A stretch of 33,577 nucleotides of DNA from the NCBI GenBank assembly GCA_018818835.1, contig JAHIRD010000156.1:1-33577 (forward strand). Reading direction: 5' to 3'. This DNA comes from Pseudomonadota bacterium (GTDB lineage Bacteria; Desulfobacterota; Desulfobacteria; Desulfobacterales; Desulfolunaceae). The translations under genes and the position numbers were made by a program. Positions 10,651 to 32,549 of this stretch are shown in pieces (position 1 is the first letter of the stretch; every line of letters begins with the position of its first letter). The notes beneath the pieces were generated by a model. The model was not told where the DNA came from and searched no databases. It saw nothing but the letters and a program-made list of their open reading frames with translations.

Positions 10651-11598
10651 ATGATGAAAAAGTTTGGTTATGTTTTACTGATTATGTGCATCAGCGTGGC
10701 AGTGGCCTTTGCTGAAAACGGTATGGAAGAAAAAGAAAAAGCGGAAGGCCGCGTCATGACGCGTCAAATGATCGAGGCGGGAATACCCGCAGACAAGATC
10801 GAGCACATGTCACGCATGATGGAAGCAAATCATTTCCGGCATGCATCCATGGTATCTGCACAAAAAACAGTTATGGAAGCGGCCCAGGAAGGGCTGCCCA
10901 CAGATCCTGTCATGAACAAAGCCTTGGAGGGCATGGCCAAAAAGGTTCCGGAGACGGCCATTGTCAATGCCATGGAAAAAACCCGTCAACGGTATGCCAA
11001 TGCCTTTCAACAAGCCCGGCAGTTTAGTCTGTCCAAGGAAAAAACGAATCGGGTTGGAAATACAATTGCCGAATGCATGGCAGCAGGCTTGACTGAAAAA
11101 GATATGGCCCAGGTTATGACACAGCTCCAAAGCCGGGTCCGTGAGGCCAAAGAGGTCAAGGATCAGGACCAGGATCTGGTAGAACAGAGTCTTCTTGCAG
11201 TCCGGACCATGTCACGGATGGGTGTTGACTCTGACAAAACCCAGGCGGTGGTCTGCCAGGCTTTGAAGAATCAATACAGTGCACAGGATATGCAGGCCAT
11301 GCAGAATCGTTTCCAGGAGCAGGTCAGGACACAAACAGCCAACATGGTTGCCAACGCCTATGCACATTCCATATCCCAGGGCGTGGGTGCTCAGAATTTG
11401 GGCCGATCCGGTGATGCCGGGCCGGGCTCTGGGTCAGGTGGTCCGGGAGGAAACAGCGGTTCCGGGGGGGGCTCAGGAAGCGGATCGGGCAGTGGCTCTG
11501 GTGGCGGTTCCGGGGGTGATTCAGGCGGCGGCTCAGGCGGTGGTTCTGGTGGTGGTAACGGAGGTGGGGGCTCCGGCGGAGGTGGCCGAGGTCGTTAA
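10651..11598 (+). CDS. secreted helical protein with a Gly/Ser-rich tail
   Basis: 315 residues. An excellent ribosome site (GGAGGAGGGG, 10641-10650) precedes ATGATG; either Met may be used. A signal peptide (YVLLIMCISVAVAFA) is followed by about 210 residues of predicted amphipathic helices rich in Met, Gln, Ala and Lys. They contain loosely repeated phrases (RVMTRQMIEAGIPADKIEHM, VQALKNQYSAQDMQAM-like), which suggests degenerate repeats of about 40-70 residues. The last 65 residues are almost only Gly and Ser. This final gene of the ECF operon could be the main exported product of the regulon, for instance a cell-surface or matrix component. No family recognised. Confidence 0.65.
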   Translation: MMKKFGYVLLIMCISVAVAFAENGMEEKEKAEGRVMTRQMIEAGIPADKIEHMSRMMEANHFRHASMVSAQKTVMEAAQEGLPTDPVMNKALEGMAKKVPETAIVNAMEKTRQRYANAFQQARQFSLSKEKTNRVGNTIAECMAAGLTEKDMAQVMTQLQSRVREAKEVKDQDQDLVEQSLLAVRTMSRMGVDSDKTQAVVCQALKNQYSAQDMQAMQNRFQEQVRTQTANMVANAYAHSISQGVGAQNLGRSGDAGPGSGSGGPGGNSGSGGGSGSGSGSGSGGGSGGDSGGGSGGGSGGGNGGGGSGGGGRGR

Positions 11599-26337: not shown

Positions 26338-26419
26338 TATCAGGTTAAATTTGTTACAGCATGATCATATGTATATATAGTCAGGCTAATCATCAAAACC
26401 TGATAGAGGAGTGTATCCG

Positions 26420-26698
26420 ATGCTTTGTACTACTGTAAGAGATCAAGTCGAATGTCCGTTTATGACCCTTCAAGGATGTTCTTATGACGGCAATGTCTGC
26501 AAACCCATTGTACCCCAGTGTGAAGGTTGCGGACGTGTTATCGAATATGCGTCAAAACATTACTGCCAGTCACAGCCTAATCCGGCTGCAAAATGGAAAC
26601 TTGGTAACTGTAATCTGGCTACCCATATTGTCGCAGAGAAAGCTGAAGCCAAACAGAAAGTGAACCCGATTAAAGCATCTAAACGAGGAAAGGGTTAA
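26420..26698 (+). CDS. PxxKW-family cysteine-rich small protein
   Basis: 92 residues from ATG 26420; GAGGAG (26406-26411) is 8 nt upstream and favours it over the GTG at 26411. Eight cysteines occur in the pattern C...C...C...C...CEGC...C...C (VECPF, QGCSYDGNVC, PQCEGCGRVIE, HYCQ, GNCNLATH), followed by the PNPAAKWKLGNC segment that names the PxxKW family known from sulfate-reducing deltaproteobacteria. The Lys-rich tail (KAEAKQKVNPIKASKRGKG) could bind nucleic acid or membranes. The Cys pattern suggests zinc or Fe-S binding. Function has not been assigned. Own promoter and terminator. Confidence 0.75.
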   Translation: MLCTTVRDQVECPFMTLQGCSYDGNVCKPIVPQCEGCGRVIEYASKHYCQSQPNPAAKWKLGNCNLATHIVAEKAEAKQKVNPIKASKRGKG

Positions 26699-30436: not shown

Positions 30437-30589
30437 TGATGAACTCGTAAAAAGTCGACGTATGGCTATGGAAAAAGGTCCATAGGCAAGGCATAGTGTT
30501 TGGCCGGGCGTGAAGGCATACTTGGTCGTATGTCGAACGTCCGGCCAAACACTATAACGCCGCATATGGGACTTTTTACGACGCCATCA
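30437..30589. repeat. 153-bp terminal-inverted-repeat element, copy A
   Basis: Ends: CTCGTAAAAAGTCGACG at the left and GACTTTTTACGACGCCATCA at the right. Inside are CTATGG/CCATAG around AAAAAGGT, then a long perfect arm pair ATAGTGTTTGGCCGG (30493-30507) and CCGGCCAAACACTAT (30541-30555), itself enclosing CATAC/GTATG. It carries no gene and looks like a MITE or large REP. Its right end supplies the last residues and stop codon of the minus-strand HAD phosphatase. Confidence 0.7.
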
Positions 30590-31265: not shown

Positions 31266-32012
31266 TTATGAGGGATCATAGTCCACTTTAACAAGAAACA
31301 AGCCCTGGGGTGGGGCTGTGGCCCCTGCCTTTGTTCTGTCTTTGGACTGAATAATGGCCCTGAATTCGTCCGGTGTCAACTTCCCCAAGCCCACGTCCAC
31401 CAAGGTCCCCACGATGTTACGAACCATGAATTTTAAAAAACCGTTGGCACTGATTTCGAAAATCACCCAGTTGTCTTTAGTCTGGAAGTCTGCCCGATCA
31501 ATATGTCTGACCGTGCTTGTTCTAGGGCTTCCGGTTCCCTCAAAGGATTTATAATCCATTTCCCCTACCAGATGATTGGCTGCCGCTTGCATGGCTTGAA
31601 TATCAAGGGGCTTTGGAATAAACCAGAAGTAGTTACGGCCAATGGATCGGGGCGTGGCTGAATTGAAAATACTGTAACGGTATGTCTTTTTCTTCACACT
31701 GTATCGGGCATGGAAGGATGCGTCCACTTTTTGGCAGTCTTTGATCACAATGCCCGGTGGAAGCATCAGGTTCAGGGCGATGCGGAAACGTTCGGCACTG
31801 ATCCGGGTGTCACAGGAAAAATGGGCCACCTGTGCCAGGGCATGGACACCGGCATCGGTTCGTCCTGAGCCGTAAATCTTGATTTCTTCCTGGGTCATGG
31901 TTTTAAGAATGCGTTGGATTTCATTCTGGATGGTGGGCAGACCCGGTTGAATCTGCCACCCGTGAAAAGCGCTTCCATCATATTCTATGGTGAGTTTGAA
32001 ATTTGTCAGCAT
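31266..32012 (-). CDS. truA: tRNA pseudouridine(38-40) synthase TruA
   Basis: 248 residues, normal for TruA. KLTIEYDGSAFHGWQIQPG, then the catalytic GSGRTDAGVHALAQVAHF (Asp53), IALNLMLPPGI, FHARYSVKKKTYRYSIFN, NHLVGEMDYKSFEGTGSP and NGFLKFMVRNIVGTLVDVG are all present. It isomerises uridines 38-40 in tRNA anticodon arms in the cytoplasm. The ATG at 32012 has no strong Shine-Dalgarno and lies 22 nt downstream of the stop of the small selenoprotein gene, so it probably depends on coupled transcription from there. Confidence 0.95.
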   Translation of the reverse strand: MLTNFKLTIEYDGSAFHGWQIQPGLPTIQNEIQRILKTMTQEEIKIYGSGRTDAGVHALAQVAHFSCDTRISAERFRIALNLMLPPGIVIKDCQKVDASFHARYSVKKKTYRYSIFNSATPRSIGRNYFWFIPKPLDIQAMQAAANHLVGEMDYKSFEGTGSPRTSTVRHIDRADFQTKDNWVIFEISANGFLKFMVRNIVGTLVDVGLGKLTPDEFRAIIQSKDRTKAGATAPPQGLFLVKVDYDPS

Positions 32013-32034: not shown

Positions 32035-32223
32035 TTACAGTCTGTTGCATGGGATATTCCCAAGTTGGTCTTCCAGATACTCATCGATCAAATAGGCAAA
32101 TGAATCGCTTGAAAAGCGTGACTTGCACGACCTGCAAGCCAGATAAACACTTTTTCAGGTTTTGCACAATGAAAGAATACCCTTGCATTTTGGACAGGTC
32201 ACACGTGATTCGATTGAAATCAT
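32035..32223 (-). CDS. small zinc-ribbon-like selenoprotein (in-frame TGA)
   Basis: 62 codons from ATG 32223 (AGGGG 6 nt upstream) to TAA at 32035, interrupted only by TGA at 32155-32157 (codon 23). Read with selenocysteine (U), the protein has CPKC at 10-13, CKTU at 20-23 and CRSC at 30-33, then an acidic helix (DSFAYLIDEYLEDQL) and IPCNRL. The Cys pattern and the LIDExLExxL...PCxRL ending match, from memory, the 'dual CXXC motif small (seleno)protein' family of deltaproteobacteria, in which the U position is Cys in other members. The similarity continues on both sides of the TGA without a frame change, and a SECIS-like hairpin follows. A CxxU motif suggests a redox or metal-binding role. 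It is first in an operon with truA and the HAD phosphatase. Confidence 0.75.
32120..32140 (-). promoter_or_regulatory. SECIS-like hairpin
   Basis: On the minus strand GGCTTGCA-GGTCG-TGCAAGTC forms an 8-bp stem (one G-U pair) with loop GGUCG, inside the coding sequence. The loop's GGUC starts 22 nt after the TGA, within the 16-37 nt window of bacterial SECIS elements. The core TTGCAGGTC is the same as in the E. coli fdhF SECIS, whose GGUC loop contacts SelB. Confidence 0.65.
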
Positions 32224-32257
32224 TTTTTCCCCTGTTGTTACATGATAAATTTTTGAA

Positions 32258-32392: not shown

Positions 32393-32549
32393 GCTGAGCT
32401 CGTAAAAAGTCGATACATGGATGGCTATGGAAAAAGGTCCATAGGCAAGGCATAGTGTTTGGCCGGGCGTGAAGTCATACTTGGTGCGTATGTCGAACGT
32501 CCGGCCAAACCCTATAACGCCGCATATGGGACTTTTTACGACGCCATCA
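32393..32549. repeat. 157-bp terminal-inverted-repeat element, copy B
   Basis: Same ends and architecture as the copy at 30437-30589: GAGCTCGTAAAAAGTCG at the left, GACTTTTTACGACGCCATCA at the right, CTATGG/CCATAG, and arms ATAGTGTTTGGCCGG (32452-32466) and CCGGCCAAACCCTAT (32501-32515) with one mismatch. A small TGGA insertion and a few substitutions distinguish it. It sits 23 nt before the pseudouridine synthase start and may affect its transcription. Confidence 0.7.

Follow-up and report, generated by a model that had tools for sequence, protein, structure and literature searches.

This study was concerned with a question raised by one TGA codon (positions 32155 to 32157, minus strand) in a 33,577-nucleotide stretch of DNA from a sulfate-reducing bacterium; this stretch was analyzed as a whole and is called the window here. 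Does the TGA stop translation after 22 residues, or is it read as selenocysteine (Sec), and possibly also as Cys, within a longer gene? Our analysis indicates that the frame is very probably a genuine, translated gene of the NF041197 family, also known as OS_HP3, in which the UGA is read as Sec. Sec insertion itself is what we infer from the gene, its family, the conservation of the TGA, the hairpin behind it and the Sec machinery of the genome, all of which were established by computation.

The gene, its family and its relatives

The selenoprotein gene occupies positions 32035 to 32223 of the minus strand and consists of 62 codons and a TAA stop. An initial annotation had described a 62-codon minus-strand frame with a single in-frame TGA at codon 23, and both the coordinates and the frame were borne out. 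Read through the TGA, the product is MISIESRVTCPKCKGILSLCKT-U-KSVYLACRSCKSRFSSDSFAYLIDEYLEDQLGNIPCNRL, which contains the CPKC, the CRSC and the PCNRL end that the annotation had listed. The first CxxC pair (CPKC, residues 10-13) is encoded at 32185 to 32196 and the second (CRSC, residues 30-33) at 32125 to 32136, both on the minus strand, and from the alignments both pairs are presumed zinc ligands. The ribosome-binding site that the annotation had mentioned, AGGGGA, lies at 32228 to 32233 (minus strand), and its AGGGG is 5 nt ahead of the ATG. The next gene, truA (31266 to 32012, minus strand), is a neighbor outside the system. It begins 22 nt downstream of the selenoprotein stop, a gap that agrees with the one given earlier, and its identity is supported by TIGR00071 (216.5 bits; cut-off 142.85).

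Three other features of the window were noted. Positions 32395-32545 and 30440-30585 hold copies of a repeat, about 150 bp long, whose inverted ends read TCGTAAAAAGTC and GACTTTTTACGA. At least 40 copies with at least 91% identity are present in the genome, counted from 40 scored candidates among 288; the selenoprotein gene and a divergent pseudouridine synthase gene have one copy between them. A small Cys-rich protein of the PxxKW family (NF038144, 114.6 bits) is encoded at 26411-26698 on the plus strand. A tandem repeat at 11456-11556 has a 24/48-base unit and looks Gly/Ser-rich.

The initial annotation had drawn a link to the dual-CXXC small (seleno)protein family, and the profile search confirmed membership. 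With the TGA translated as Cys, the product scored 61.6 bits against NCBIfam NF041197.2, "dual CXXC motif small (seleno)protein" (curated cut-off 40; E 5.7e-17), and the match spanned positions 1-53 of the 53 in the profile. A six-frame search of the genome also placed the gene above the cut-off (52.4 bits). The family layout of two CxxC pairs with Sec or Cys between them is represented here by CPKC, U23 and CRSC. In the portion consulted, a 2026 review (PMC13188914) equates the NF041197 family with hypothetical protein OS_HP3, motif RxU, which it credits to Zhang and Gladyshev 2007, and gives a second entry under NF041197, "Hypothetical protein DW," motif GxU. A 2022 review lists OS_HP3 and, in the portion consulted, gives no function for it; an excerpt of the deep-Sep paper reports OS_HP3 of Desulfosarcina widdelii PP31 as the sole known selenoprotein missed in its test genomes. 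Our full-text literature search, which covered few subscription journals, found no functional study of NF041197 or OS_HP3. OS_HP3 and the window gene share both CxxC pairs, a TGA at the Sec position and a C-terminal DR/NR-L/I end. OS_HP3 is printed as RxU, whereas the window gene reads K-T-U with Cys at -3, and little else differs. Thus, the window gene is a further member of a catalogued, functionally unstudied selenoprotein family and not an unknown kind.

In a survey of the phylum, 112 of 395 genomes matched NF041197 at E <= 0.001 and 88 were over the cut-off, while 0 of 14 control genomes matched. Of the 144 survey matches, 120 were extracted and sorted by motif into two types, which the tree places on opposite, fully supported sides. 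Type A, to which the window gene belongs, comprised 64 TGA forms, 26 Cys forms and one truncated match in 33 families; its TGA rows span 29 families and its Cys rows five. Type B, the sister type, comprised 27 TGA and two Cys forms in 15 families. The annotation had suggested a search for homologues with Cys or TGA at codon 23, and one or the other was found in all 119 extracted matches that hold the position. In the window's order, Desulfobacterales, 15 of 17 genomes gave matches (14 type A with TGA, plus the truncated match). The tree implied four changes between Sec and Cys, a result that is weak because only 52 columns were available for 119 rows. No match to the selenoprotein was obtained by tblastn in phages and plasmids. 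One viral contig matched the CxxC stretch at query residues 3-25 only; its frame has no TGA there, and the match was taken as chance.

The sister type, with its GRU-like motif, was observed beside type A in many genomes, L098 and others with two matches among them; in the window's genome, the NF041197 survey found no type B copy. Type B was considered as a new family and rejected, since full-length type B sequences reach or approach the cut-off (36.3-46.8 bits; eight tested, six over 40) and a GxU entry stands under NF041197 in the consulted portion of PMC13188914. The sister type is probably the DW entry. DW has the CxxC..U..CxxC layout in common with the window gene, but by motif it fits type B, whereas the window gene is type A.

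A scan of named genomes returned 26 loci, mostly from Desulfobacula, Desulfotignum, Desulfobacteraceae and the like, and 25 full loci were aligned with the window gene. A cultured relative, Desulfatibacillum alkenivorans DSM 16219, also has the TGA form. The TGA is kept at the position of codon 23 in all 26 sequences (window included). Median pairwise dN/dS was 0.24 before the TGA (209 of 325 pairs usable) and 0.16 after it (208 of 325). Homologues cover both sides of the TGA; the annotation had named a lack of such homologues as evidence against a selenoprotein.

The same annotation held that the TGA completes a CxxC. The window gene does have Cys at -3 relative to Sec, but this is not a feature of the family. 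Cys at -3 was found in 14 of 64 type A Sec forms, in none of 26 Cys forms and in none of the 25 near relatives in the alignment, which means that, as a rule, the TGA completes no CxxC. The CxxU is therefore a local trait, present also in certain distant clades, rather than the family's working motif. Other positions are better conserved. Relative to Sec, CxxC stands at -13/-10 and, in every type A row counted, at +7/+10. Arg or Lys at -2 was found in 56 of 64 type A Sec forms, and Arg in all 26 Cys forms; Arg or Lys at +1 was found in 55 of 64 Sec forms. The family pattern is CxxC...[R/K]-x-U...CxxC.

The hairpin behind the UGA

A SECIS-like hairpin is predicted at 32112 to 32154 (minus strand), directly after the UGA. 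Its two 8-bp stems are separated by a bulge, and the upper one ends in a 5-nt apical loop, GGUCG (32128-32132), in which the first G lies 23 nt past the UGA. Its folding energy is -16.2 kcal/mol (z -3.37); none of 200 dinucleotide shuffles and one of 150 synonymous-codon randomizations were as stable. Against a synonymous null, the mean z was -1.50 in type A Sec forms (27 of 64 at p < 0.05), -0.28 in type A Cys forms (2 of 26) and -0.11 in control stretches (26 of 326). In a loose geometry test, a G had to occupy one of the first two loop positions at 16-38 nt from the UGA. Among type A sequences, 60 of 64 Sec forms and 15 of 26 Cys forms passed; among type B sequences, 24 of 27 Sec forms and 0 of 2 Cys forms did so. 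Because 530 of 1574 control stretches passed as well, alongside many Cys forms, this test is only supporting.

The second CxxC codons form the apical part of the hairpin. The stem is therefore partly a by-product of TGC...TGC, and comparison was made at two stem pairs that lie clear of the invariant Cys codons, 18-32 and 17-33. The first was kept in 30 of 36 distinct near-relative sequences (as C-G or U-A) compared with 9 of 25 Cys forms, and the second in 26 of 36 (G-C, C-G or U-A) compared with 5 of 25. In addition, 28 of 29 distinct near-relative sequences use AGG for the Arg of C-R-x-C, where local usage predicts 4.9; other surveyed Sec families with Arg at this position use AGG in eight cases and CGG in five. 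These flanking pairs and the AGG bias are the informative evidence for the hairpin. Outside the order, the best-fold loop of Sec forms lies near +17 in 26 of 50, instead of near +24. The SECIS-like element thus seems to occur in two registers within one family; pair counts split by register lean to pairing, because the split was itself made by folding. In the window, the SECIS features of a hairpin directly after the UGA and a G opening the apical loop were found by structure prediction and comparison.

Sec machinery and the decoding of the UGA

The genome (6.75 Mb, 334 contigs) was searched for selA, selB, selC and selD, as the initial annotation had advised, and all four were found: a canonical tRNA-Sec with G73 (74.1 bits), selA (607 bits), selB (SelB1; 366 bits) and selD (363.5 bits), which has one in-frame TGA of its own. 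Across the phylum, co-occurrence of the TGA form with tRNA-Sec is uninformative, because tRNA-Sec is over the cut-off in 355 of 395 genomes. SelB, most likely SelB1, would act on the hairpin behind the UGA to deliver Sec-tRNA-Sec, placing Sec at residue 23, and the ribosome would read through to give the 62-residue protein. Decoding as Sec, which the annotation had put forward, is supported by the machinery, the conservation of the TGA and the hairpin. However, Sec may not be the only residue inserted, because the genome also holds a selC*/selB*-like set of the kind held to insert Cys.

This second set lies on contig C160. It consists of a tRNA-Sec-like gene (L203:3474-3565, minus strand; 56.6 bits) with a UCA anticodon, A1:U72 and U73 and, some 50 nt downstream of this gene, a second selB (L167:12301-14226, minus strand; 298 bits), which is only 32% identical to the first. 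Contamination was considered as its source and is unlikely, since C160 shares the 150-bp repeat with the rest of the genome and has a tetranucleotide make-up similar to that of the window (r 0.96). According to PMC7609411, a selC* tRNA-Cys occurs with selB* in Syntrophobacterales and Desulfobacterales, a set credited to Mukai et al. 2017; CysRS* was shown to charge the tRNA, and cysS* lies downstream of selB* in Desulfobacterales. The C160 set resembles the published Desulfobacterales set in A1:U72, UCA, U73 and a selB copy downstream. It differs in having no cysS* beside it: none of the six CysRS matches in the genome is on C160, and for this reason the set is named selC*-like only. Elsewhere in the genome, contig C100 (L234:589-2880) has a 763-aa frame with a second full CysRS match, which by inspection reads as a cysteine synthase/CysRS fusion.

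Genes resembling the second selB were also sought in the phylum. In 17 of 395 genomes, a SelB stood out as clearly more similar to it, with 36-54% identity (54% in a partial match); the rest reached at most 34%. Flanks of 26 SelB loci were scanned, and 21 held a tRNA-Sec-like tRNA (9 UCA, 12 GCA; 20 U73, 1 A73; 4 with A1:U72). The counts include five tRNAs next to SelBs from the less similar group and some that are more than 1 kb distant. The NF041197 family was present in 13 of the 17 genomes with a SelB2-like gene compared with 99 of the 378 others, a link that may reflect common descent because the 13 genomes fall in only seven families.

These results bear on the reading that competes best with Sec, namely that the UGA is recoded as Cys, wholly or under selenium shortage, by a selC*-type UCA tRNA and SelB2. 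We regard it as unlikely, with several points in its favor. The C160 tRNA gene and its own divergent selB are arranged as in PMC7609411, which reports that such a tRNA can be charged by CysRS*; the contig is probably native, by its shared repeat and make-up; and Cys would be tolerated at residue 23, given that Cys forms exist in five families. However, canonical tRNA-Sec (G73), selA and selD are all present, and the C160 set has no cysS* beside it, the second full CysRS match being the fusion on C100. Furthermore, the TGA is kept in near relatives, several of whose surveyed genomes have no SelB2-like gene. A combined reading is that two SelB/tRNA pairs serve one UGA: SelB1 would bring Sec-tRNA-Sec, and SelB2 a selC*-like UCA tRNA charged with Cys, so that the Sec form would be made when selenium is plentiful and the Cys form when it is scarce. 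This, too, is rather improbable in our estimation.

It is also conceivable that the frame serves chiefly as a selenium-sensing leader of truA, in which termination at the UGA would lower coupled translation of truA. On the same strand, truA follows the frame after 22 nt. In seven surveyed type A loci of the order, truA likewise lies no more than 1 kb downstream in the same orientation, and it is present in the DNA examined around the gene in 4 of 26 named relatives, in one of which it overlaps the gene's end. However, conservation of the protein holds at the level of single residues, and in other lineages the neighbors are different (pyrE, fabD, asd, rpoD or alaS-type, named by sequence inspection), which makes the leader reading very improbable. 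Least credible of all is a true stop, with a 22-residue peptide and a decayed or chance frame behind it; TGA is a standard stop codon, but purifying selection continues past it (median dN/dS 0.16), the family match crosses it, Cys homologues have no stop there and the hairpin is kept. The 62-residue frame is more than chance, as seen from the family match, the homologues on both sides of the TGA, the dN/dS and the hairpin.

Fold and possible function

An AlphaFold2 model of the protein, built from 26 sequences, was of middling confidence (mean pLDDT 66.6, pTM 0.46). Its strands span residues 3-9, 16-21, 26-30 and 36-38, followed by a helix at 49-54. Residue 23 lies in a turn between two strands that carry the CxxC pairs at their far ends. 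A sequence profile search of the PDB gave 2jrp (E 1e-4), plus weak zinc-ribbon matches. The structural matches are weak: in VIA the best was topoisomerase I (Z 5.8 over 57 residues), with RPB9 reaching 3.9, and none of 158 Foldseek hits in the PDB had E <= 0.001. Among Pfam zinc-ribbon models, none reached its gathering score, the best being PF07191 (18.7 bits; gathering 25). The zinc ribbons of the YfgJ-like double zinc ribbon 2jrp, RPB9 and topoisomerase I resemble the window protein in having two CxxC knuckles about 16 residues apart with a beta hairpin between them. They differ in having no Sec, and the similarity in sequence is below Pfam gathering. On the model, the window protein is probably a zinc ribbon with Sec in the hairpin turn, and its two CxxC pairs presumably bind zinc.

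In the mechanism that we favor for the Sec form, pairs 10-13 and 30-33 probably hold one Zn in a zinc-ribbon fold, and Sec23, near the conserved Arg/Lys at 21, would sit in the turn between beta strands, away from the zinc knuckles. The zinc ribbon would then be a scaffold that presents a reactive selenol beside Arg. The likeliest job would be reversible thiol/selenol chemistry, carried out at this exposed turn and directed at a partner protein or a small molecule; thiol chemistry is argued because Sec is replaced only by Cys in the matches examined. The redox role itself is put forward tentatively, as somewhat doubtful.

Other routes to a function were considered and rejected. First, a CxxU redox selenoprotein of the thioredoxin-like class would have a conserved Cys three residues before Sec, and the counts at -3 given above (14 of 64, 0 of 26) do not show one. 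Secondly, the C-terminal Cys of the window protein, residue 59, was considered as a conserved resolving partner, but no second Cys is conserved in such a role. The fourth residue from the end is Cys in 30 of 64 Sec forms and otherwise mainly Val, a count in which a few rows with one extra residue shift the position. Third, clusters of neighbors recurring in at least four families were housekeeping genes (by inspection; truA by NCBIfam). Since the neighbors are housekeeping genes and differ between lineages, genomic context points to no function.

The window gene is a clear new case of a selenoprotein family that apparently no one has yet studied for function. Its comparison exposes the conserved core, which is a lone Sec/Cys beside Arg/Lys, placed in the hairpin turn of what is probably a zinc ribbon, and not a CxxU pair. 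The possible double reading of the UGA is the part that would surprise a specialist. Because one UGA could be served by two SelB/tRNA sets here, the choice between Sec and Cys at a given codon might be directly measurable in this organism. If true, dual decoding would be a back-up that keeps the gene expressed when selenium is scarce.
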